46,179 nt of DNA from Phycisphaerae bacterium (GTDB lineage Bacteria > Planctomycetota > Phycisphaerae > Sedimentisphaerales > Anaerobacaceae), in the NCBI GenBank assembly GCA_017993835.1, contig JAGOLX010000048.1, positions 1-46,179 of the forward strand. Direction: 5' to 3'. Made by a program: the position numbers and the translations under genes. Each line of letters opens with the position of its first letter. The first letter of the stretch is position 1. This document shows positions 9,718 to 34,945 of this stretch, one piece after another. The notes under the pieces are model-generated. The model worked only from the letters and a program-made list of their open reading frames with translations, was not told the DNA's origin and did not search any database.

Positions 9718-10198
9718 GGCACTGAACCCTGGTCTCTCTGGAACTAACGAAACACCCCGAAAGAGCCTCCACCACCGAGGCACGGAGGCCACGGAGCAGG
9801 ATGAACGGAATCCGAAGATCACGTTGCCTGGGCGGTCTTCGCCAGAGGGATCTCGATGATACAGAGACGCGGCGACAGCGGTAGGGTGGGCTACGCCCAC
9901 CGATCATCCATCCCCCAAACCGCAGAATCCGTCAACGAGGCCCTCCGCCTGGTCCTCCAATTGACCGAGCTCCGCTCCAAGAAGCGAAAGCCCTCCCACC
10001 ATTGCGGAGGCTCGGCAGAACGCGCAGAGGCCGGCGATAGTCATTCTCTCGTCTCCGGAACACGGTAGTTGGCCCCATTATTGCGACAGTTGTCGGCGAA
10101 TTAACATGGTGAACGCAACAGGAATATAGAAGCGACATCGCGAGTCGAATCCGGTAGCTTGGAGTTGTTCAAGGACTTCAGACTACGGAGTGCTCGCG
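9718..10198. other. 480-base intergenic stretch upstream of the IS30 gene
   Basis: It contains a ccaccgaggcacggaggccacgg low-complexity string near 9767, the palindromic repeat at 9869-9904, and a leader before the transposase that includes gtgaacgcaacagg (10108-10122). That last string resembles the ends of IS30-family elements, so the left end of the element probably lies in about 10060-10125. No gene is supported; a short frame around 9925-10010 (VNEALRLVLQLTELRS) may be a gene remnant. Confidence 0.45.
9869..9904. repeat. CGACAGCGGTAGGGTG palindromic repeat, copy 2
   Basis: The lead gcggcgacagcggtagg is followed by the palindrome GTGGGCTACGCCCAC (9886-9900) and CGAT. It is the second member of the family at 6289-6324. 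Confidence 0.7.
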
Positions 10199-11566
10199 AT
10201 GTCGTACCATCATCTTACCATGGACGAACGAAATGTCATCTACCGAATGCGATTCCAGGGCTACCCGGATGCCGAGATCGCCCGCTGCCTCGGTTGCCAT
10301 CGAGCCACCATCGGTCGCGAAGTCAAACGCAACGCCAGCGTCGAAAGCCGCTACTATCCAGGCACCGCCCAGACCCTGGCGAACCGCCGCCGACGGGCCC
10401 ATCTGTCTCGGCCCAAGACCGGCCATCGTCGCCTGATGGCCTACGTCGGCGAGCGGCTGGCGGACCACTGGTCGCCGGAGCAGATCGCCGGACGCGTGTC
10501 GTCCTGCCCTCCGCCGGACCTCGCGGGCCTTTCGATCAGTCACACCACCATCTATCGCTGGATCTGGGCGGATCGCCGGCGAACGCAGCAATTCCGTCCC
10601 TTCCTGCGAATCGCTCGAAAACCCCGTCGCAAGCCCTACGGCAAACCCTCTCGCCAGGGCCAGATCCTCGGCAAACGGTCCATCGACGAACGCTCCAGAG
10701 AGGCCAACGAACGCACCCGGCTGGGCGATTGGGAAGGCGACACCGTGGTCGGCAAAGGACGCAAGGGATATCTGGTCACCTGCGTGGATCGGGCCAGCCG
10801 CTACGTCATGGCACGAAAGGTCCACGCCTGTGCCGCCGAGCCGGTCGCCGAGCAACTCCACCGGACGATCCGCAGACTGCCCGCCGAGAAACGCCGCAGT
10901 CTGACGCTGGACAACGGCCGGGAGTTCGCCCGTCCCATCGAGCTGGAACGCCGACTCGATCTGCCCATCTACTTCGCCCACCCCTATCACTCCTGGGAAC
11001 GCGGAACCAACGAGAACACCAACGGCATCCTGGGTCCTTCCTGGCTGACGACGGTTCGGCAAAAACAGTCTATCAACCAGATTCGAAGCCGGGATGCATT
11101 CATGAAAACAGTGAGGTTCCGCTTGCTTCGTCCCTGGAACTTCGTCGGTTCGGCGTCGGCCCTCACCCCAACCGGGCCGGCGACGAAGCGGCGGAGTGCA
11201 AGGGACGTCCCTGGGCACTTCCGAGGCAGGCCGAGGTCCGCCCCCCCCTCAAATCCACCCACAAATCAGTTCAGAGAACCAGTTTTCTCTTTCATATGTC
11301 TTGGATGCTATTCAGGACAACCGGGGGTGGGACCGGGGCAGCCACCTATGTGCGGCTTCCTCTATCCTGTTTTTTCCGGTTGTTGGACTGGCACGACTAA
11401 CCGACTCATCGCGGCCTCGCCAGGCTCGTCGGGTATGTCGGAACAACCTGCCCTCACGGCTTTGCGGGATCGAGGCGGGATTGGTCGGGGGAATCAGGGA
11501 TTGAACCTACAGATTTCACAATTGTGCTGTCAGAGGGACGTTTCTCGGGACAGATCGTGCGGGTAA
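10199..11566 (+). pseudogene. IS30-family transposase, 3' part replaced
   Basis: The N-terminus (MSYHHLTMDERNVIYRMR) with its helix-turn-helix (AEIARCLGCHRATIGREV) and the DDE core are typical of IS30: first Asp in GDWEGDTVVG, second Asp in LTLDNGREFA, catalytic Glu in ERGTNENTNG. Normal members continue LLRQ(F/Y)FPKGTDF; here the frame turns to GILGPSWLTTVRQ at about 11035 and runs through unrelated DNA to 11566. The end of the catalytic domain and the right inverted repeat are therefore missing, and the element is probably dead on its own. ATG 10199 is chosen over the frame opening at 10190. The extension from about 11035 overlaps the 3' end of the opposite-strand esterase. Confidence 0.8.
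11381..11440. repeat. Partial copy of the CCGACACTTGG-type repeat
   Basis: The string ttggactggcacgac ... ctcatcgcggcctcgccaggctcgtc matches the middle of the copies at 7266 and 14427 at lower identity. Confidence 0.4.
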
Positions 11567-23570: not shown

Positions 23571-25484
23571 ATGGCTCGACGCAAGCCCGGTGAGAAACGA
23601 AGTCAGGAGTCCCGACGGCCGGCGGACAGCGTGTCCGTCGCGCTGGTGCAGCAGGGCGTGTCCCCACACCGATTCCGGGCGCCGCGGAGCGTGGTCTTCT
23701 TTGCCCTGTTCTGCCTCTACTTCGCCTTCGGGATCGATGTCCGTCTGATCTACCATTGCGGCGGGCTGGTGGACGACTTCCCCTGTTTCTACTGGGGATG
23801 GGATTTCCTCCGCGATTCTCTCGCTGTGCCCGGCGGGGCCGTCGAATACCTCTCGGCGCTTCTGGCCCAGTCCTTCTACTATTCCTGGCTCGGCGCCGCG
23901 GTGATGACAGCCAAGGCCTGGCTGCTCCTCGCGTGCACCGACTATGTCCTGAAGAACCTTGGCGTGGGTCACCTTCGAGGACTACGGTTCCTGGGCCCGT
24001 TGGCGTTGCTCGCCGTCTACTCGCGATACGGATTTCCGTTCCTGACCACGCTGGCCCTGCTGGCGGCACTGCTGGGCGTGTGTCTGTATCTGAGACTCCG
24101 GACGACGACCGACGGTCGCGCCGTCGGCTGGTTCCTGGCCATCGGTCTGCCTCTGTATGCGGTAGCCGGGGGTGCGTCGCACGTCTTCGTCGTCTTGTGC
24201 GGACTGTACGAACTGCTCGTGCGGCGCCGGCTGCGTGTCGGCGTCGTCCAATTGGCCTGCGGCGCGGCGACGCCGCTCGTGCTCGGGAATCTCGCGTATG
24301 GGGTCCGACTCGCCGACGCCTACTGGTGCCTGACGCCGCTGTCGTGGGAACTCCTGGGGCACAGCACATTCCGGATCATGCTAAATGCCATCTGGGTTCT
24401 CTACCTGTTCCTGCCTGTTCTTGTCGGTGCGGTAGGGGGATGGCGTCTGATCTTCGCAGGTCGGGGAGGTCTCGCGTCATCCTGGGGCAAGACCCGCGTC
24501 GCGCGAGTTCTCAGCGAGGACTGTCGGGGCAAGGTTGGCTTGAACCCTCCGACGCTGGCCCTCGTCGTCGTCACCGCTGTCGTCCTGCTGCTCGCCCGCG
24601 CGCCGGCGACCAAGGAGGTTCTGGTCGCCGACTACTTCTCTCGATACGAGATGTGGGATCGGCTGCTCGATCTGGGACGACGGAGTCCCTATCGCTACAC
24701 GGTCTGCCACGCGGTGGATCGCGCCCTGTGCCGGCTCGACCGATTGTGCGACGAGATGTTCTGCTTTCCGCAACAGCCTGAGGCGCTGCTGCTGACCGAT
24801 CGGACGGCCGAGCCGGTCTGGCAGAAATTTGACACGTGCCTGGATCTCGGCCTGATCAACCAGGCGGAGAACGCGCTGCTCATGTCCACGGAGATCTACG
24901 GCGAGCGGCCCCTCCTGCTCCACCGGCTGACGAGGGTCAACCTGGTCAAAGGCAACGTCGAGACCGCCCGCGTCTACCTCGAAGCTCTGACACGGGTCCC
25001 GTTCTGGGGTGCGACGGCCCGCCGGGATTTGGCTCGCCTGCAAGCCGATCCGGATTTGTCCGAGGACGAGCAGATCCAGCACTGGCGAAGCATCATGCTC
25101 AAGGCGGATTCCGTGAGGAACGTGGACGTCCTGGGCCAGTTGCTGACGGAGAACCCGGCGAATCGCACGGCCTATCAATACGCCGTAGCTTTCTCTCTGC
25201 TCTCGATGGATCTGGACGGCTTCGTGCGGCTGTTCGAGACGTACCATCAGCGGAGCTTCTCGCGAATTCCCAGGCACTTGGAGGAAGCCCTGCTGGTGTT
25301 CCGAACGGTGAAAAGGCAATCGCTCGATGCGCCGGGGCAGGCGGTTTCCCCCGAGGCCAAGGCGCAGCTCCAGGAATTCCTCCAGGTGTTCCAGCAGGCG
25401 GGCAGGGAGAAGACCGCCGCACGGTCGGCGATCCGCGAGAAGTTTGGCGGCACGTACTACTATTACTACTTCGTGGGCAGGTGA
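23571..25484 (+). CDS. DUF6057-like polytopic membrane protein with TPR-like soluble tail
   Basis: A 637-residue protein. ATG 23571 has GGAG five to six bases upstream; a TTG at 23553 is less likely. After a basic N-terminus, about ten hydrophobic segments run from residue ~45 (VVFFALFCLYFAFGIDVRLIYH) to ~345 (TLALVVVTAVVLLLARAP). The rest is soluble and helical, resembling TPR repeats (LINQAENALLMSTEIYGERPLLLHRL; NPANRTAYQYAVAFSLLSMDLDGFVRLFETYHQ), ending in a Tyr-rich GGTYYYYYFVGR. The layout fits DUF6057 proteins, whose function is unknown; assignment is from memory of that family. The stop overlaps the next gene by four bases (GTGA), so both are translated together. Confidence 0.65.
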   Translation: MARRKPGEKRSQESRRPADSVSVALVQQGVSPHRFRAPRSVVFFALFCLYFAFGIDVRLIYHCGGLVDDFPCFYWGWDFLRDSLAVPGGAVEYLSALLAQSFYYSWLGAAVMTAKAWLLLACTDYVLKNLGVGHLRGLRFLGPLALLAVYSRYGFPFLTTLALLAALLGVCLYLRLRTTTDGRAVGWFLAIGLPLYAVAGGASHVFVVLCGLYELLVRRRLRVGVVQLACGAATPLVLGNLAYGVRLADAYWCLTPLSWELLGHSTFRIMLNAIWVLYLFLPVLVGAVGGWRLIFAGRGGLASSWGKTRVARVLSEDCRGKVGLNPPTLALVVVTAVVLLLARAPATKEVLVADYFSRYEMWDRLLDLGRRSPYRYTVCHAVDRALCRLDRLCDEMFCFPQQPEALLLTDRTAEPVWQKFDTCLDLGLINQAENALLMSTEIYGERPLLLHRLTRVNLVKGNVETARVYLEALTRVPFWGATARRDLARLQADPDLSEDEQIQHWRSIMLKADSVRNVDVLGQLLTENPANRTAYQYAVAFSLLSMDLDGFVRLFETYHQRSFSRIPRHLEEALLVFRTVKRQSLDAPGQAVSPEAKAQLQEFLQVFQQAGREKTAARSAIREKFGGTYYYYYFVGR

Positions 25485-27082
25485 AGGGCCTCGTCGTGTC
25501 CAGACGTTTCATAGTTGGTTTGCTCCTGTTGGTCCTTGCGGCCGGCATCTTCCTCGGCGGAGGACTGCTGTACCGGTCGGTCTCGCAGGCGATGATTCGG
25601 CAGGCGGAGCCGGTAGACCGGCAGGCTCGGATACGACCCGACTACAGTGGGTCGGTCATCCCGCCGGATATTGCCCCGCTGAATTTCGCAATCCAGGAGT
25701 CCGGCGTCGCGTTCTGTGCCCGGATCTCGTCGCAGCAGGGCCAGGCCATCGAAGTGTTCAGCCGGGACGGCGTCGTCGAGATTCCGCTGAAGCGATGGCG
25801 GAGCCTGCTCGATGCCAACCGGGGGCAGACGCTGTGCGTGGATGTCTTCGCCCGCGATAGGAACGGGCGGTGGAGTCGTTTCCAGACGATCACGAACCAA
25901 ATCGCGCGAGAGGATATCGACGACCACCTCGTGTACCGCAAGATGCATCTGACCCACGTCCGCGTCCGCAGCAGGATCGGCGTCTACTGCCGGGATTTGA
26001 CCGGCTTCAAGGAATCCGTCGTGCTCGACAGCACCAGCTATGAAGGGGGGTGCCTGAACTGCCACAGTTTCCGCCAGAACCGCTGGGACAAGATGCTGCT
26101 GGGCGTCCGGTCGGAGAAGTACGGCACCGCGACGCTTCTGGCCGAGGACGGCGTCGTCCGCAAGCTCGGGACGAAGTTCGGCTACACCTCCTGGCACCCC
26201 AGCGGGCGACTGGCGGTCTACGCCGTCAACAACATCCCGCTGTTCTTTCACTCGACGCAGAACGAGGTGCGCGACACGACGAACGTCGATTCCATGCTGA
26301 TGGTGTACGACGCACAGCAGCATCGGATCGCGGTCGAGCCGAAGCTGGCGCAGAAGGACTGGCTGGAGAACTGGCCGACCTGGTCGGGCGACGGCAAGTA
26401 CCTTTACTTCTGCACGGCCCGCAAGCTCTGGCCGGCCGGCGCGGGCACGCCGCCCCCGCAGTATGACCAGATCAAGTACGACCTGGTTCGCATCCCGTAC
26501 GAGATCGAGACGAACACATGGGGGCAGATCGAGACCGTGCTGTCGGCCCAGCGGACCGGCAAGAGCATCGGCATGCCGCGAGTCAGTCCGGATGGCCGGT
26601 TCCTCTCGTTCTGTATGTTCGACTATGACTACTTCCCCGCCTGGAAGCAGGAAAGCGATCTGTACCTGATTGATCTCCAGGCTCCTCAACAGGATGGGCA
26701 GTTCGCCTACCGGCGCCTCGACATCAACAGCGACCAGAGCGAGGCCTGGCAGACGTGGTCGAGCAACAGCCGATGGCTCGTGTTCAGCAGCAAACGACTC
26801 CAGGGCGTCTTCACCCGGTTGTTCATCAGCTACGTGGACGCCGAGGGCAACGCCCACAAGCCCATCCTCCTGCCTCAGAAGGACCCCGAGTTCTATGACT
26901 CCTGTCTGCTCGTGTTCAACACGCCGGAATTGGTGGTCGGTCCGCCGCAGGTGGCAGGCGAGTCTCTCGCGAGGGCCTTCCGCAGTCGGCGAGCCACGTC
27001 GGTAGCGATGCCCGTCACGATGGCGACGCCGGCCTCGCCCCGGCCTCCTTCCGCCCCCTCGTCGCAAATGCAACACGAGTAA
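25481..27082 (+). CDS. Membrane-anchored PD40/TolB-like propeller with CxxCH motif
   Basis: A 533-residue protein starting at GTG 25481 in a GTGA overlap with the DUF6057-like gene. An N-terminal anchor (FIVGLLLLVLAAGIFLGGGLLY) exposes the rest outside the membrane. An Ig-like part (LNFAIQESGVAFCARISSQQG) precedes C191-L-N-C194-H195, a c-type heme attachment motif in EGGCLNCHSF. Then come PD40/TolB-like blades (TSWHPSGRLAVYAVNN; ENWPTWSGDGKYLYFCTA; MPRVSPDGRFLSFCM; QTWSSNSRWLVFSS). The paired gene is always of interest since it implies one complex: membrane TPR protein plus surface propeller. Whether heme is bound is untested, and only one CxxCH is present. Confidence 0.8.
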   Translation: MKGLVVSRRFIVGLLLLVLAAGIFLGGGLLYRSVSQAMIRQAEPVDRQARIRPDYSGSVIPPDIAPLNFAIQESGVAFCARISSQQGQAIEVFSRDGVVEIPLKRWRSLLDANRGQTLCVDVFARDRNGRWSRFQTITNQIAREDIDDHLVYRKMHLTHVRVRSRIGVYCRDLTGFKESVVLDSTSYEGGCLNCHSFRQNRWDKMLLGVRSEKYGTATLLAEDGVVRKLGTKFGYTSWHPSGRLAVYAVNNIPLFFHSTQNEVRDTTNVDSMLMVYDAQQHRIAVEPKLAQKDWLENWPTWSGDGKYLYFCTARKLWPAGAGTPPPQYDQIKYDLVRIPYEIETNTWGQIETVLSAQRTGKSIGMPRVSPDGRFLSFCMFDYDYFPAWKQESDLYLIDLQAPQQDGQFAYRRLDINSDQSEAWQTWSSNSRWLVFSSKRLQGVFTRLFISYVDAEGNAHKPILLPQKDPEFYDSCLLVFNTPELVVGPPQVAGESLARAFRSRRATSVAMPVTMATPASPRPPSAPSSQMQHE

Positions 27083-28048: not shown

Positions 28049-28077
28049 TTGACATGATTCGCTCTAAGGTATATACT
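28049..28077 (+). promoter_or_regulatory. vapBC promoter
   Basis: TTGACA (28049-28054), 17 bases, TATACT (28072-28077): near-consensus sigma-70-type promoter 28 bases before the vapB start. Confidence 0.8.
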
Positions 28078-28090
28078 ATGATATATACCT
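28067..28090. promoter_or_regulatory. vapBC operator (inverted repeat over the -10 box)
   Basis: AGGTATATA (28067-28075) and TATATACCT (28082-28090) form a perfect 9-base inverted repeat with a 6-base centre. It covers the -10 box and the transcription start, the place expected for autorepression by VapB or VapBC. Confidence 0.75.
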
Positions 28091-28104
28091 ATACAGGAGT
28101 TGAT

Positions 28105-28341
28105 ATGGATACCGCGAAGCTGTTTAAGAACGGGCGAAGTCAGGCGGTGCGGCTTCCGAAGGAGTACGCGATGCCAGGGGACGAGGTATACGTCAAGCGG
28201 ATCAATGGGGCCGTCGTGCTCATTCCGAAGAATGGCGATCCATGGGGGCCATTTCTCAATAGTCTGGACAAATTCTCGGACGATTGTTTGAGTTCCGAAC
28301 GCGATCAAGGCGCATTCGAGCGGCGCGACGCCATCCCATGA
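28105..28341 (+). CDS. vapB: VapB-type (AbrB/SpoVT fold) antitoxin
   Basis: A 78-residue antitoxin. ATG 28105 has AGGAG five bases upstream; an earlier in-frame ATG (28054 frame) lies inside the promoter and is rejected. The swapped-hairpin DNA-binding motif is clear: MDTAKLFKNGRSQAVRLPKE then GDEVYVKRINGAVVLIPK. The C-terminal part (FLNSLDKFSDDCL) is the usual toxin-binding tail. Its last bases overlap the vapC start (ATGA), typical for VapBC. It should repress its own promoter through the inverted repeat at 28067-28090. Confidence 0.92.
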   Translation: MDTAKLFKNGRSQAVRLPKEYAMPGDEVYVKRINGAVVLIPKNGDPWGPFLNSLDKFSDDCLSSERDQGAFERRDAIP

Positions 28342-28748
28342 ACTACCTGCTCGATACCAACATCTGTATTGACATCATCAGATATAGACCGCCGGCGGTT
28401 CTGACACGGATTCAATCGCAACAGCCGGACGAGGTGGCCATCTCGACGATCACCCTTGCCGAGCTGGAGTACGGGATTGCCCGCAGCCGCTACCCTGATC
28501 GCAACAGGGTGGCACTGTTCGAATTCCTGCTTCCCTTCGCGATTCTCGGGTTTGACCAGAGAGCCGCGACCGAATATGGGTGTATCCGGTCGGCACTGGA
28601 GTCCAAGGGCAGGCCGATTGGCCCGATGGACTTGCTGCTGGCGGCACAGGCCAAGTCGCTCGACCTGACTCTGGTGACGAACAATGAAAGGGAATTCAAG
28701 AGGGTGGAGGGTCTGCGAGTGGAGAACTGGGCGAAGACTCGCAGATAG
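28338..28748 (+). CDS. vapC: VapC-type PIN-domain ribonuclease toxin
   Basis: A 136-residue toxin that cleaves RNA. The PIN acidic residues are present: Asp6 in MNYLLDTNI, Glu42 in TLAELEYG and Asp98 in IGPMDLLLAAQA; the last motif LVTNNEREF has the common Asn form. Start ATG 28338 overlaps vapB. The length is normal and the frame intact, so the module looks functional. An inverted repeat TCTGCGAGT/ACTCGCAGA spans the last codons (28712-28745) without a T-run; it might protect the 3' end of the message. The pair sits between small membrane proteins and a MITE-like element. Confidence 0.93.
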   Translation: MNYLLDTNICIDIIRYRPPAVLTRIQSQQPDEVAISTITLAELEYGIARSRYPDRNRVALFEFLLPFAILGFDQRAATEYGCIRSALESKGRPIGPMDLLLAAQAKSLDLTLVTNNEREFKRVEGLRVENWAKTRR

Positions 28749-28799: not shown

Positions 28800-29124
28800 G
28801 GGTGCATGACCGTAGTTGCACGCGTGCGCTGGAGGTTCACGGGGACCAGGGATTGTCATTCCCGCGAAGCCGTTCATGGGCCTTTGGCCCGCCCGAAGGG
28901 GATGGAAATGGTGCCGCTTCGCCACGTGGTACACAAGTCTTGTCCAATACACGACTTGGCGCGTTTTGTTCCGTTGTCCGTCCGTGTATTTCCAGAGGAG
29001 CGGGAATCCACTCACTCGGTCGCGTCCAGTCCCGCGGCTCCTGGATTCCTGCGTGCGCAGGAATGACAGCGTCCAGGCAATGTCGCGCCAGGTTGCGAAA
29101 GGGCGCAGGAACGGACATGCACAC
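28800..29124 (+). repeat. MITE-like element, copy 2, with an insertion in its first palindrome
   Basis: Terminal repeats are ggtgcatgaccgtagttgca (28801-28820) and cgcaggaacggacatgcac (29104-29122). The right palindrome (GGATTCCTGCGTGCGCAGGAATG, 29042-29064) is intact. The left one is split: ATTCCCGCG at 28859-28867 and GCGGGAATCC at 28999-29008 are separated by about 130 unrelated bases instead of 3-4. Confidence 0.65.
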
Positions 29125-29245: not shown

Positions 29246-30769
29246 ATGAAGGGACAGACGCGACGCGAATTCCTCAAGACCCTGGGTGCTGCGGCGGGAT
29301 TCTCGCTGCTTGGAGGCGGGATCGGGCGGGGTCAGGCTTCCGGGGCGACCGGACGGCCGAACATCCTTTTCATCATGACCGACGACCACGCGTCCCACGC
29401 GATGAGCTGCTACGGGAGCAAAATCAACAAGACGCCCAACCTGGATCGCATCGCCAACGAGGGGATGCGGTTCACCAACAGCTTCTGCACGAACTCGATT
29501 TGCGCCCCGTGTCGGGCGGTGATTCTCACGGGCAAGTACAGCCATCTCAATGGGCTGATCGACAACAGCGTGACGTTCGACGGCTCGCAGCAGACATTTC
29601 CCAAGCTGCTCCAGGAGGCAGGCTACGAGACCGCGATCATCGGCAAGTGGCATCTCAAGAGCGACCCGACCGGCTTCGACTACTGGAACATCCTGCCCGG
29701 GCAGGGGGTGTACTACAATCCCGTGACGATCGAGATGGGCCGGCAGAAGAAGCACGAGGGTTATGTCACCGACATCCTCACGGACTACGCGATCGATTGG
29801 ATGAAGGGCCGTAAGGAGGGCAAGCCCTTCTGCCTGATGTTCCACCACAAGGCGCCGCATCGCGAGTGGGAGCCCGGGCCGAAGTATCTGACGCTGTATG
29901 ACGATGTCGAGATCCCGGAGCCTGCAACGCTCTTCGACGACAACGCCGGCCGGGGTCGGGCCGCCAAAGAGCAGGACATGACGATTGAGAAGACCCTGAC
30001 CAAACGCGACGTCAAGCTCGTCACGCCGGGCAGGCTCACGCCCGAGCAGCAGGCGAAGTGGGACGCCGCCTATGGGCCCAAGATCAAGGCCTTCGAGGAG
30101 GCGAATCTCCAGGGCAAGGACCTCGTCCGATGGAAGTATCAGCGGTACATCAAGGATTACCTGCGCTGCATCGCGTCCGTCGATGAGAGCGTCGGGAAGG
30201 TGCTCGACTACCTCGACCAATCGGGCCTGGCCCGGAATACGGTCGTGATCTACACAAGCGACCAGGGTTTCTACCTGGGCGACCACGGCTGGTTCGACAA
30301 GCGATTCATGTACGAGATCTCGCTGCGGATGCCGCTGCTGGTGCGGTATCCGAAGGAGATCCGCGCGGGCTCGGTGAACAGCGACATCGTGCTGAATCTG
30401 GACTTTGCCGAGACCTTCCTGGACTGGGCGGGCGTGCCTGTTCCCGCTGACATGCAGGGCCGGTCGCTGCGTCTGCTGTTGCAGGGGCGAACGCCCCCAG
30501 ACTGGCGGACCTCGATGTACTATCACTACTACGAGTACCCGGCGGTCCACAGCGTCAAACGCCATTACGGCGTCCGAACCGAGCGATACAAGCTGATTCA
30601 CTTCTACAACGATATTGACGAGTGGGAGTTGTACGACCTCAAGACCGATCCGGACGAAAGGCAGAACGTCTACAACGATCCCCAATATGCCGAGATCGTG
30701 CAGGAGCTGAAAGCCAAATTGAAGCAGTTGCGGGCCCAATACAACGACACGACCGGCGCGCCCGTGTAG
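29246..30769 (+). CDS. Tat-exported sulfatase with a CxPCR active-site variant
   Basis: A 507-residue sulfatase of the alkaline-phosphatase superfamily, exported folded by the Tat path ([11 protein letters not shown]). Metal ligands D46-D47 lie in FIMTDDHAS, and [11 protein letters not shown] near residue 338 supplies the second metal site. The activation motif reads C86-A-P-C89-R90 (usual: CxPSR); the formylglycine-forming Cys86, Pro88 and Arg90 are kept, but the Ser at +3 is Cys. The rest ([29 protein letters not shown]) is standard. It probably removes sulfate from algal or animal glycans in the periplasm. GGGG precedes ATG 29246. No partner gene of the same strand follows; a separate FGE is not seen in the window. 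Confidence 0.92.
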
Positions 30770-30865: not shown

Positions 30866-31438
30866 CTAGCGGATCACTTCGCCGGTGGCTTTGTTCCACC
30901 GCGTGGTGCGGTTCTGCATCCGATGCCTGGTCCCGTGGCAGTCGGTGCAGTACTTCTTGGCGTCCGCGCCGGAGGGGGCTTCCTGGAAGATGCTCAACCC
31001 TGCCTGCAGGATGGGTTCGTGGTCCTTGAGGTAGTCGATTTCATGCCTCGGATGGCACATCATGCACATGGGATTGATCCGTTCTTTCGGATACATCAGC
31101 TCGGGCGGCGTGACGTTCCCCTCGTCCGAGCGGTGGCGGAGCGATTCGCCGTGACATCGCTCGCAGCCGATCCCGGCCAGCTCGTGGTCCAGGGCCAGTT
31201 CCTCCTCGTCGAAGTCGAGATGGCAGGCCCGGCAATAGGGGTTGGCTACGAAGGCCTGCGTCGGTTTCGCGTAGTAGTCCTTATTGTCCTGCGGTTCCGC
31301 GGGCGCCTTCACGGCATGAGCGGTCTGTGAGGCGGCGCTGCGATTGCCGTCGTCGAATGAGCAGCTCATCGCGGCCAAGAGCAGCAGACTGCCCAGGAGG
31401 ATCGCTGGGACCGGCAGGGGCCCTTCTCGCCGTTTCAT
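30866..31438 (-). CDS. Tetraheme c-type cytochrome lipoprotein
   Basis: A 190-residue exported protein with four heme motifs: CRACH, CERCH, CMMCH and CTDCH. The signal ends LLLGSLLLLAAMSC, a lipobox that suggests lipid anchoring. Extra His residues (LDHEL, RHRSD, HEIDY, HRMQ) can serve as distal ligands. It resembles small tetraheme cytochromes of the NrfH/NapC-like or cytochrome c554 group only in motif count; no closer family was recognised. ATG 31438 follows the stop of the aldo/keto reductase-like gene by two bases, so the gene is the last of a three-gene operon and likely hands electrons to or from that protein; this is inferred from the arrangement. Confidence 0.82.
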   Translation of the reverse strand: MKRREGPLPVPAILLGSLLLLAAMSCSFDDGNRSAASQTAHAVKAPAEPQDNKDYYAKPTQAFVANPYCRACHLDFDEEELALDHELAGIGCERCHGESLRHRSDEGNVTPPELMYPKERINPMCMMCHPRHEIDYLKDHEPILQAGLSIFQEAPSGADAKKYCTDCHGTRHRMQNRTTRWNKATGEVIR

Positions 31439-31440
31439 TC

Positions 31441-32559
31441 CTACACGTACTCCCAGTTCTTCAGCCACTGGTAATCCGCGGGCAGCTTCGCCCAGGCCTC
31501 GTCCATCGTCTGCCGGAGTTCCACGGCCTCGGCCTCGTTCAGGTCGGGCTCCTTCACCGCCTGGACGACGTTGTCCACCTGATGCGTGTTGATCAGTCCC
31601 GGAATCGGCGCCGTGATTACATCCGTAGCGACAATGTAGCGGATCGCCATGCGGGCGATGCGGTCATCCTGCTCGGCTGTGGGACTCGACAGAGAACCGT
31701 CGCCTTTGAAGACCGCGTTGCTGGAGAACGGCTTGATGCCGAAGACGCCGACATCGTACTGCCTGACCGCGTCGAACAGACTGTCGAGCGGACGGACCTT
31801 GCTCTTGGCGGTGTACGGCGTCACGACCACCTGGACGATCTCGGGGAAGGTCTCGATCATCCACTTGATGTGCGGACGGTCGTGCGATGAGAACCCGGTG
31901 AACCGGCACTTGCCCTGTTGGCGCGCCTTTTCCAGGGCCTTCATCATCTCCTCGACCTGGCCCTTGGAGTGCATCCCGCTCTGCTCGTGCATGGTGATGC
32001 GCCACAGATCGGCATATTCCAGTCCTGCTTCCTTCAGGCCTTTGTCGATCGTTCCCAGCAGGGCGTCGGCCTTCTGAAAGTTCGGATTGCGCATCTCCTC
32101 CTCGTACCAGGAGCAGCCCAGGAACATCTTGTCACGCCGGCCTCTCAAGGCCTCGGCATACGCTTGGACCTCGCTCTTCGTACAAGCGTCGATGTAGTTG
32201 ATGCCCGACTCGATGCAGCGAGTGACGACCTCGTAACGGTTCTTCTTGAAGTCCTCGTCGCTCAGGGAGGCGCCCAGCCAGTTGCCGCCTTGCAGGGCCT
32301 TGGGCGCCATGGTCTCGATGCGTTTCCAGTGTCCGCCCATGCAGACCGCGGAGATCCACAAGCCGGTCTTGCCCAGCTTGCGGTATCTCATGTTGGGATT
32401 GAAGCTGCGAGTCTTGGCCGGCTCTCCGGCATGGGTCTGCGAGGCCCCCAATGTGCGGGCTCCCGCGGCAATTCCCGCGGCCGCAGCGACACTGTCGCGC
32501 ACAAACTCCCGCCGCGTCAGATTCTCACGCCCACATGGCTGTTCGCTTCTGGTGCTCAT
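31441..32559 (-). CDS. Tat-exported aldo/keto reductase-like protein with a degenerate active site
   Basis: A 372-residue protein with a Tat signal (LTRREFVRDSVAAAAGIAAG) and the AKR barrel (MRYRKLGKTGLWISAVCMGG at residue 57). AAGGAG lies seven bases before ATG 32559. The catalytic tetrad is Asp-Tyr-Lys-His in active members; here Asp124 is kept in NYIDACTKSE, but the Tyr usually found five residues on is absent, the Lys of the STK segment reads GCSW, and His191 is kept in ITMHEQ. A classical NADPH reductase is therefore doubtful, as is NADPH supply in the periplasm. Upstream neighbour: sugar isomerase-like protein (31 bases); downstream: tetraheme lipoprotein (2 bases). Confidence 0.82.
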   Translation of the reverse strand: MSTRSEQPCGRENLTRREFVRDSVAAAAGIAAGARTLGASQTHAGEPAKTRSFNPNMRYRKLGKTGLWISAVCMGGHWKRIETMAPKALQGGNWLGASLSDEDFKKNRYEVVTRCIESGINYIDACTKSEVQAYAEALRGRRDKMFLGCSWYEEEMRNPNFQKADALLGTIDKGLKEAGLEYADLWRITMHEQSGMHSKGQVEEMMKALEKARQQGKCRFTGFSSHDRPHIKWMIETFPEIVQVVVTPYTAKSKVRPLDSLFDAVRQYDVGVFGIKPFSSNAVFKGDGSLSSPTAEQDDRIARMAIRYIVATDVITAPIPGLINTHQVDNVVQAVKEPDLNEAEAVELRQTMDEAWAKLPADYQWLKNWEYV

Positions 32560-32589
32560 GGACTTCTCCTTACGATCTGTTGGCTTGAG

Positions 32590-33501
32590 TCAGACTGCCT
32601 GTGTGTCAGCCGGCTTCGCAAGCTTGCCATAGCAGTCCTTCAGATAATCCTTTGCAGTTGCGAGGTTCTTCGTCATGATTTCCGTTCCTGGGTGGCCGTG
32701 CATGAAGGGATTGACGTATCCACGGTACTTCACCTCCGCCAGGGCCCCAAGCCAGGGCGTCATGTCCGTCGGGCCGACGCCGGGAAGCTGCGCGGAATCG
32801 GGCTGGTTCTGCCAGGCATAGAAGAAGAGCAGTTGCCGGCCGCAAATGCGGATCACATCGGGGACCGATACCTTGGCTGCCTGAAGGTGGTAGGGGGCCA
32901 ACGCGATCCCCAGACGCGGTGACGAGTTGGCATCGACGAACGCCTTGAAGGAATCCGTCGAGTCCAGCAATGCGCTTCCATGATTCTCGATGGCCAGACA
33001 GGAGTTGTGCTTCTCCGCCAGCTCGATCAGAGGTTTGAGGTTCTCGATGAACTGACGCATTCGAGAAGACAACTCGGCGGGCTCGCACGGCCCGGCGCTG
33101 CCTTGGACCGCGACGCCTCCGCCCACCTGGCCCAACAACTGGGCGTAGCGTGCATACCCCCCGGCGTAGACGGAGAACGCGGACAGTCTGAGCTTGTGCC
33201 TGTCCAGGAGCTTCCGCAACCCATCGGGTCCGAGCCGGGAGGCCACATCGTCCAGGTGCGGACAGCCCTCGTGGGCGGACCAGATGTCGATCGCTTCGAA
33301 GCCCAGTCCCGCGATTCGCTCGCAGACCCTCTCGATGGGCAACTCCGCGAAATGAATGGAGGAGGTAGCCAGACGCATCCGCCAACGTGCGTCCTCCACG
33401 GGGCTGGAATCGGGAACGGCCGTCGTCGCTCCGCATTTGCCCGAGACGAAGGCGGCTCCCATCCACGTCAGGAATCTGCGTCGACCGATCATGTAGTCCA
33501 T
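32590..33501 (-). CDS. Tat-exported sugar-phosphate isomerase/epimerase-like TIM barrel
   Basis: A 303-residue protein of the xylose-isomerase-like (AP endonuclease 2) superfamily. ATG 33501 is used: GGAG lies eight bases upstream and a Tat signal follows (IGRRRFLTWMGAAFV). The frame is open for another 79 codons, but those cover the GC palindromic repeat and are an artefact. Barrel features are RMRLATSSIHFAELPIERV, GFEAIDIWSAHEGCPH, LKPLIELAEKHNSCLAIENHG with the usual metal-binding Glu/His area, and YRGYVNPFMHGHPGTEI at the end. Substrate unknown. In this operon it may act on the same periplasmic sugar compound as the AKR-like protein; that is inference. Confidence 0.82.
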   Translation of the reverse strand: MDYMIGRRRFLTWMGAAFVSGKCGATTAVPDSSPVEDARWRMRLATSSIHFAELPIERVCERIAGLGFEAIDIWSAHEGCPHLDDVASRLGPDGLRKLLDRHKLRLSAFSVYAGGYARYAQLLGQVGGGVAVQGSAGPCEPAELSSRMRQFIENLKPLIELAEKHNSCLAIENHGSALLDSTDSFKAFVDANSSPRLGIALAPYHLQAAKVSVPDVIRICGRQLLFFYAWQNQPDSAQLPGVGPTDMTPWLGALAEVKYRGYVNPFMHGHPGTEIMTKNLATAKDYLKDCYGKLAKPADTQAV

Positions 33502-33859: not shown

Positions 33860-34045
33860 GGTGCATGTCCGCAGTTGCGCGTGCGATAGGGGTTCATGGA
33901 GCCCCCGGGTTGTCATTCCCGCGAACGCGGGAATCCACTCTCCATGTCGCGTGCCAAGTCCCACAGTTCCTGGATTCCTGCTTGGCGCAGGAATGACAGA
34001 GGCGATTCCCGAGGCTCGAAGGAATCTATCTGCAAACATGAATCG
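33860..34045 (+). repeat. MITE-like element, copy 3
   Basis: The left terminal repeat is ggtgcatgtccgcagttgcgcg; internal palindromes are ATTCCCGCGAACGCGGGAAT (33916-33935) and GGATTCCTGCTTGGCGCAGG (33973-33992). The right end is degenerate (ctgcaaacatgaatcgcacc). Confidence 0.7.
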
Positions 34046-34183
34046 CACCCTAGGGAGGTATGGCTGCTGTGCCCTGGAGCTTGCAGGTGTGATGGGGGCA
34101 CGGTAGAATCCCTTCCAGCAGCGGTTCTCGATATCGCCTGCGTTTTCAATGTGGCCGCACAGGAGACTGATGTGCCCGCACGC

Positions 34184-34945
34184 ATGGAACAGGATGGTCA
34201 TTCAGCCGAGAGTCGGCCCCTGGACGAGTTGACGATCACCGTCATTCACGACAACTACCCCTGCGTCGAGTCGCTGCGGACCGCGTGGGGCTTTGCCGCG
34301 CATATCGCCGGGGCAGAGAAGAACATCCTCTTCGACACCGGCAGCGATGGGACGCTCCTGCTGGAGAACATGGCGAAGCTGCAAATCGACCCTGCGGGCA
34401 TCGACGTGGTGGTCCTCTCGCACGTGCACGGCGACCACGCGGGCGGGCTGGCCGGGCTGCTCGATGTGAATCCTCGGGTCCACGTCTGTCTGCCGGGGTC
34501 GTTCCCCGCCCGGGTGAAGGACCTCGTGCGAGGGCACGGCGCGTCGATAACTGAGGTCAGCGAGCCGCAACAGATCTGCGGGAATGTGTACAGCGCGGGC
34601 GCGCTGGGCCGACGGGTCCAGGAGCAGGCGCTGGCTATCCGCACCCGGCGGGGCGTTGTGATCCTCACGGGCTGCGCCCATCCCGGCGTGGCCAGGATCG
34701 TGAGCGAAATCCACCGTCAGCATCCTGGCGACATCGCTCTCGTGATGGGCGGTTTCCACCTCGAATGGACGATGTCGAGGACGATCCGGCAGATCATCAC
34801 CAGCTTCCGCGAGTGCGGCGTCCGGTGCGTTGCGCCGACTCACTGTTCCGGCGTGAAGGCCCGCGAGCAGTTCCGCGAAGCCTATGGGCCGCGGTTCATC
34901 CAGGTGGGCGCGGGAAAGGTCGTGACCCTGGCGGCCCTGCCATAG
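34184..34945 (+). CDS. MBL-fold metallo-hydrolase (DHPMBAP-synthase-like)
   Basis: A 253-residue metallo-beta-lactamase-fold protein. The metal motif H-V-H-G-D-H-A-G-G lies near residue 86 after FDTGSDGTLLLENM, with later ligands His in LTGCAHPGV and His in VMGGFHLEW, and an end APTHCSGVKAREQFREAYG. This pattern matches the 7,8-dihydropterin-6-methyl-4-(beta-D-ribofuranosyl)aminobenzene-5'-phosphate synthase-like branch. The start is uncertain: ATG 34184 has no ribosome-binding site and the frame is open upstream (a GTG at 34151 is possible); a signal peptide or anchor may have been altered by MITE copy 3. A strong hairpin follows the gene. Confidence 0.8.
   Translation: MEQDGHSAESRPLDELTITVIHDNYPCVESLRTAWGFAAHIAGAEKNILFDTGSDGTLLLENMAKLQIDPAGIDVVVLSHVHGDHAGGLAGLLDVNPRVHVCLPGSFPARVKDLVRGHGASITEVSEPQQICGNVYSAGALGRRVQEQALAIRTRRGVVILTGCAHPGVARIVSEIHRQHPGDIALVMGGFHLEWTMSRTIRQIITSFRECGVRCVAPTHCSGVKAREQFREAYGPRFIQVGAGKVVTLAALP

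Follow-up and report, generated by a model that had tools for sequence, protein, structure and literature searches.

The window, that is, the whole stretch of 46,179 nucleotides that was analysed, carries on its minus strand three tightly packed ORFs, with intergenic gaps of 30 bp between P0001 and P0002 and 2 bp between P0002 and P0003. These genes and the two that border them are as follows.

32590..33501, minus strand: P0001, Tat-type xylose-isomerase-like TIM barrel of 303 aa (PF01261), with a degenerate metal site; a clade-specific accessory.
31441..32559, minus strand: P0002, Tat-type AKR-fold protein of 372 aa (PF00248), its tetrad down to D124.
30866..31438, minus strand: P0003, tetraheme c-type cytochrome of 190 aa, lipoprotein-like, with four CXXCH motifs and Pfam multiheme matches.
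29246..30769, plus strand: convergent Tat-type sulfatase (SGSH_C type), assigned with Pfam; context.
33896..34945, plus strand: divergent neighbour encoding a metallo-beta-lactamase-fold protein, given as the longest ORF, with the domain starting at about 34304; context.

Twin-arginine motifs lie near the N-termini of P0001 (GRRRFL) and P0002 (TRREF), and the hydrophobic leader of P0003 ends in a lipobox-like ...LAAMSC. In the alignments the RR motif is nearly invariant among the AKR relatives, and the cytochromes of relatives repeatedly show lipobox-like leaders; from these motifs and their conservation we read all three proteins as exported. Pfam identified a sulfatase, a GH116-type protein and a DUF2961 protein among the neighbours in the window, and no flavin dehydrogenase among the immediate neighbours of the trio that were scanned. 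Antisense ORF clusters (F1) in the neighbourhood comparison were ORF-shadow artefacts and were set aside. A short repeat ('GTTGTCATTCCCGCGAA...') occurs in diverged copies, 80–85% identical and about 5 kb apart (28821–29055 and 33878–33984), on either side of the region of the sulfatase and the trio; this region could be mobile or the result of recombination. Also present in the window are a small MazE/AbrB-type antitoxin ORF with a PIN-domain toxin ORF after it (a VapBC-like pair, 28054–28748), a PD40 beta-propeller protein with one CLNCH heme motif that is possibly another exported redox protein (25400–27082), and an IS30-like transposase (HTH_38 + rve, 10190–11563).

The four heme motifs of P0003 are CRACH, CERCH, CMMCH and CTDCH. 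The protein matches PF13435 (29.7 bits against a cut-off of 20.8), PF14537 and PF14522, which places it among multiheme c-type cytochromes of the c554/c7-like kind. All four CXXCH motifs are invariant in 73 relatives, a set that was itself selected for at least four such motifs. Candidate distal histidines are conserved at H84, H102 and H172, and at H140 in the close group, and they fit a predicted role in electron transfer rather than in catalysis. The preliminary description had reported three minus-strand genes with very short gaps, two Tat signals and one lipoprotein signal, and a tetraheme cytochrome as the last gene, and on each of these points the analysis agrees, the export signals being read from motifs.

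P0002 matches PF00248 with an E-value of 1e-18 (67 bits against a curated cut-off of 24), and the AKR match spans the whole barrel of its AlphaFold2 model (pLDDT 86.6). Leading fold matches of the model are L-galactose 1-dehydrogenases (8usu, Z 27.0, rmsd 3.0, 273 residues aligned), followed by other sugar and aldehyde AKRs at Z 25–27, with the leaders tied within 1 Z; Foldseek placed AKR14A1/YghZ at the top. PDB sequence searches with the trio proteins returned nothing closer than remote relatives among AKRs, c554 cytochromes and ketose epimerases, and structural arguments here rest on fold matches and alignment columns. To follow the catalytic tetrad, all 65 PF00248 proteins of five genomes (the window's own and four relatives) were aligned, with the alignment anchored on a tetrad-complete AKR. 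The full Asp-Tyr-Lys-His tetrad is found in 38 of the 65, whereas P0002 and 22 relatives, 23 clade members in all, keep the Asp alone. P0002 has D124/-/S150/T189 at the D/Y/K/H columns: throughout the clade the loop that bears Tyr is shorter, the Lys column holds Ser, Asp or Ala, and the His column holds Thr, Gln, Ser or Val. The preliminary description was thus right that Tyr and Lys are lost and Asp is kept, but not that the tetrad His is retained; H191, which was probably meant, lies two residues past the His column, at a position where relatives have M, L, N, C or Y.

Five residues of P0002 are invariant in the clade, namely H77, D124, S224, H226 and K276. H77 is present in 23/23 clade members and in none of the 38 tetrad-complete AKRs, whereas H226, K276, S224 and G321, likewise found in 23/23, also occur in many tetrad-complete exported AKRs. 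Because the clade has an invariant residue set of its own, its active site looks rebuilt rather than decaying. At the nucleotide site the G321, Q327 and N330 end is retained, so that bound NAD(P) and redox-neutral chemistry would be possible; the carboxamide Asn/Gln columns are occupied by S/T and aliphatic residues, and these columns vary in tetrad-complete AKRs too. Compared with the AKR superfamily (PF00248; L-galactose 1-dehydrogenase, AKR11C1, AKR14A1/YghZ), P0002 shares the barrel fold (Z 25–27), with clear homology, and keeps the Asp, the Ser of GxSN and the C-terminal PG loop. It differs in the loss of Tyr, Lys and His, the gain of the invariant H77, Tat export and a dedicated tetraheme gene. 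By homology P0002 belongs to the AKR superfamily, although, as judged from the alignment, it lacks the tetrad that defines AKR enzymes. A second group of exported AKRs (L108, L117, L119) has lost the tetrad differently, with D-L-R-C at the tetrad columns, and is without a cytochrome neighbour.

To place the pair in a wider context, loci were fetched by AKR similarity from named genomes of Planctomycetota, Verrucomicrobiota (including Kiritimatiellia), Armatimonadota and Acidobacteriota, and from relatives. Most AKR relatives are followed directly, on their 3′ side, by a P0003-like tetraheme gene, and this extends to more distant subfamilies at about 30–45% identity; the pair was found in Planctomycetota, Verrucomicrobiota and Armatimonadota. 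Since retrieval by similarity could bias the sample, the census of all PF00248 proteins in the five genomes was used as well. There, a 3′ ORF with at least three CXXCH motifs within 900 bp accompanies 16 of 23 tetrad-lost AKRs and 0 of 38 tetrad-complete ones; many of these 38 are also exported (Tat-type), and none sits beside a multiheme gene. In the window's own genome the sole tetrad-lost AKR has a cytochrome and the seven tetrad-complete AKRs do not. Over all loci (156 distinct AKR ORFs collected), a cytochrome lies within 1 kb of 77/108 tetrad-lost AKRs and 0/40 tetrad-complete ones, with a Fisher p-value (5e-17) that is descriptive only, because relatives are not independent. Chance adjacency of AKR and cytochrome is ruled out by the tetrad-complete control set, in which the pairing never occurs. 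The distances among the AKRs and among the cytochromes of 73 pairs correlate strongly (Mantel r 0.775, uncorrected for shared ancestry; reached in 0 of 2000 permutations, the largest giving 0.20), which suggests that the pair is inherited as a unit.

A cytochrome within 1 kb is missing for 31 of the 108 tetrad-lost AKRs. In some of these cases the AKR opens a tandem AKR-AKR-cytochrome array (L017, L037, L038, L055), and two of the exceptions lie in an Acidobacteriota (Bryobacteraceae) genome (L052, L140). Five exported tetrad-lost AKRs of the P0002 clade (L066, L067, L073, L077, L131) have no adjacent cytochrome; they may share a cytochrome encoded elsewhere or may have lost it. The clade is patchy across the phylum, with at least 9 of 294 genomes containing it when six candidates were scored per genome, and is present in 55 of 148 close relatives.

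P0001 matches PF01261 (E 4e-16) and has a TIM-barrel fold. Its model (pLDDT 77.7) resembles the superfamily of ketose 3-epimerases, IolE, UlaE, C-deglycosidases and AtHYD, with matches to D-tagatose 3-epimerase, UlaE, DgpB-C and AtHYD at Z of about 21–23. Three of the four Glu/Asp/His/Glu metal ligands are lost (D to A202, H to Y228, E to N264/F266) and E172 is kept, whereas canonical PF01261 paralogues in neighbouring loci keep all four ligands (E/D/H/E). With the tetrad of P0002 reduced to its Asp and three metal ligands of P0001 gone, both barrels are without their canonical catalytic apparatus. Of 110 tetrad-lost AKRs, 18 have a P0001-like gene directly upstream, members from Armatimonadota and Kiritimatiellia among them; the cytochrome downstream was confirmed in 13 of these cases and absent in 3, and 2 have a short flank. 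Upstream of the same 110 AKRs, a LamG (PF13385) protein was found in 11 cases and another AKR in 7, and most have neither of these nor a P0001-like gene. In relatives from the window's genus (L031, L032, L034), the AKR-cytochrome pair stands by the same metallo-beta-lactamase gene at the syntenic site, without the TIM barrel. Upstream of the AKR in L050, a different PF01261-like family has partly lost its metal ligands in a manner unlike P0001 (L050:4911-5894, 'YNLHHGH').

The trio as a conserved unit is ruled out, because the TIM barrel is absent from the genus relatives and from most subfamilies; the P0001-type protein is an accessory. What is strongly conserved is the AKR-cytochrome pair, and the association tracks the loss of the AKR tetrad. 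The preliminary description had called for a neighbourhood search on the trio and had named the lack of a conserved association as a refutation. Its idea of an exported redox set was partly right, and the core of that idea withstands this test, with the unit redrawn as the AKR-fold protein and its tetraheme cytochrome.

The strongest hints to the predicted function of the pair come from gene fusions. In one polypeptide, the tetraheme domain is followed by a C-terminal PF06439 domain in L065, L068, L074, L075, L127 and L132, whereas PF06439 is N-terminal to the tetraheme domain in L053, L162 and L164, which belong to a different subfamily. The nine relatives with such fusions show both domain orders, which points to two or more fusion events. 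PF06439 is named '3-keto-disaccharide hydrolase' in Pfam (DUF1080), a name that calls for caution; that phrase was not found in the literature searched, and solved PF06439 structures are labelled only as 'putative glycosyl hydrolases'. The family is common in planctomycetes, its biochemical role is uncertain, and transcriptomics of a planctomycete led to the proposal that DUF1080 proteins are xanthan-backbone glycosidases (PMC5673643). Genes near the TIM-barrel subfamily encode, among others, Gfo/Idh/MocA dehydrogenases, additional PF01261 proteins and sulfatases, and in several relatives a sulfatase gene is found 3′ of the pair as well. A sugar context for the module is supported by the PF06439 fusions, the LamG partners, the sulfatase and Gfo/Idh/MocA neighbours and the modelled fold match to L-galactose dehydrogenase.

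In two further loci (L051, L157) a NapC/NirT domain (PF03264; E about 1e-23 to 1e-24) precedes the P0003-like domain in a fusion protein, which would connect the module with the quinone pool. NapC/NirT/NrfH quinol dehydrogenases and cytochrome c554 are, like P0003, multiheme electron carriers, but P0003 itself has no NapC domain and its partner is an AKR-fold protein rather than a known reductase.

We consider that the pair may form a periplasmic sugar oxidoreductase module, in which an AKR with a remodelled site exchanges electrons with a dedicated tetraheme cytochrome, and we put the chance of this just short of even. In such a module, the AKR-fold protein would cross the membrane folded, via Tat, and the mouth of its barrel would hold a sugar or glycoside. 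A site rebuilt around D124, H77, H226, S150/T189 and K276 would stand in for the Asp-Tyr-Lys-His tetrad, and the protein would swap electrons with the membrane-anchored, mostly bis-His tetraheme cytochrome, which would in turn join the quinone pool through NapC/NirT-type partners. In the direction that we modestly favour, the sugar would be oxidised to a keto sugar and its electrons would leave via the hemes, and the keto product would be handled by a subfamily-specific partner, namely the TIM barrel in this window and the fused PF06439 domain in others. No known AKR hands electrons over to heme, and since NAD(P)H donates hydride, the module would need a different cofactor or a firmly bound NAD(P) that works with an intermediary. 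No redox cofactor or intermediary for transfer from AKR to heme is visible in the sequence. The more specific proposal that an AKR-fold clade has turned into a heme-coupled sugar oxidoreductase, with a new site (H77, D124, H226, K276), a cofactor different from freely exchanging NAD(P)H, and an oxidation or reduction wired to the quinone pool via the tetraheme protein, is possible but less likely than not.

The preliminary description had pictured a redox transformation of a sugar with electrons going to hemes; the sugar context is supported, and electrons may run either way, because the NapC/NirT fusions fit a reductive reaction driven by quinol just as well. NapC/NirT proteins normally oxidise quinol and feed periplasmic reductases, and many of the hosts are apparently MAGs from sediments or anoxic zones, which would suit a terminal reductase in which electrons pass from quinol through a NapC-like step and the tetraheme cytochrome to the AKR-fold protein, and from there to a keto sugar or another organic acceptor. 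NapC-type proteins can, however, work both ways, and PF06439, as annotated, better suits a step after oxidation, so that we regard the reductase as unlikely, if a serious contender. Loss of the AKR tetrad and of three of four TIM-barrel metal ligands, together with the LamG-type carbohydrate-binding partners, would also fit a non-redox scaffold, in which the two barrels are sugar-binding pseudoenzymes or redox-neutral lyases or epimerases and the cytochrome, though encoded in the same operon, transfers electrons for a purpose of its own; this is improbable considering that the pairing follows tetrad loss very closely, that both proteins diverge together and that the new polar residue set is invariant, unlike in drifting pseudoenzymes. 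An ordinary exported NAD(P)-dependent AKR with a cytochrome gene behind it by happenstance would agree with the PF00248 score, the fold and the partly kept nucleotide-binding end, but is very improbable, with Tyr, Lys and His absent clade-wide and no cytochrome ever accompanying the exported AKRs that keep the full tetrad in the same genomes.

Known sugar C3 dehydrogenases are flavoproteins or NAD-dependent Gfo/Idh/MocA proteins, and the eliminases need Mn2+. The proposed sugar oxidoreductase module resembles in its logic the cytochrome-linked periplasmic C3 dehydrogenases and 3-keto glycoside cleavage (Agrobacterium GlycDH/AtOGE/AtHYD), where a flavin C3 dehydrogenase acts with an Mn2+ TIM-barrel eliminase and a hydratase (PMC10628242): in both, the sugar would be oxidised without soluble NAD and the keto sugar then processed by isomerase-like TIM barrels or related partners. 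Since its putative oxidoreductase has an AKR fold and its TIM barrel is without three metal ligands, the module is not a member of these pathways. In the PSCyt proteins of PVC bacteria, hemes are tied to LamG or carbohydrate-binding domains and to sulfatases, and these proteins are thought to act on carbohydrates (PMC5615132); the module differs in its AKR fold and CXXCH tetraheme units, and AKRs are unmentioned in that paper (0 matches for 'aldo'). No description of an AKR combined with a tetraheme cytochrome was found in the literature searched, where coverage of subscription journals is thin.

The pair suggests an undescribed route by which electrons may reach or leave extracytoplasmic sugars; testing this should be straightforward, as the cytochrome offers a direct optical readout. 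AKRs are viewed as textbook NAD(P)H enzymes; if the proposal is true, an AKR barrel would have been turned into a periplasmic electron-transfer enzyme. Planctomycetes and their relatives are rich in sulfatases and in PF06439 genes of unclear role, and such a module could help explain how extracytoplasmic sugar cleavage or oxidation is coupled to respiration in these bacteria.
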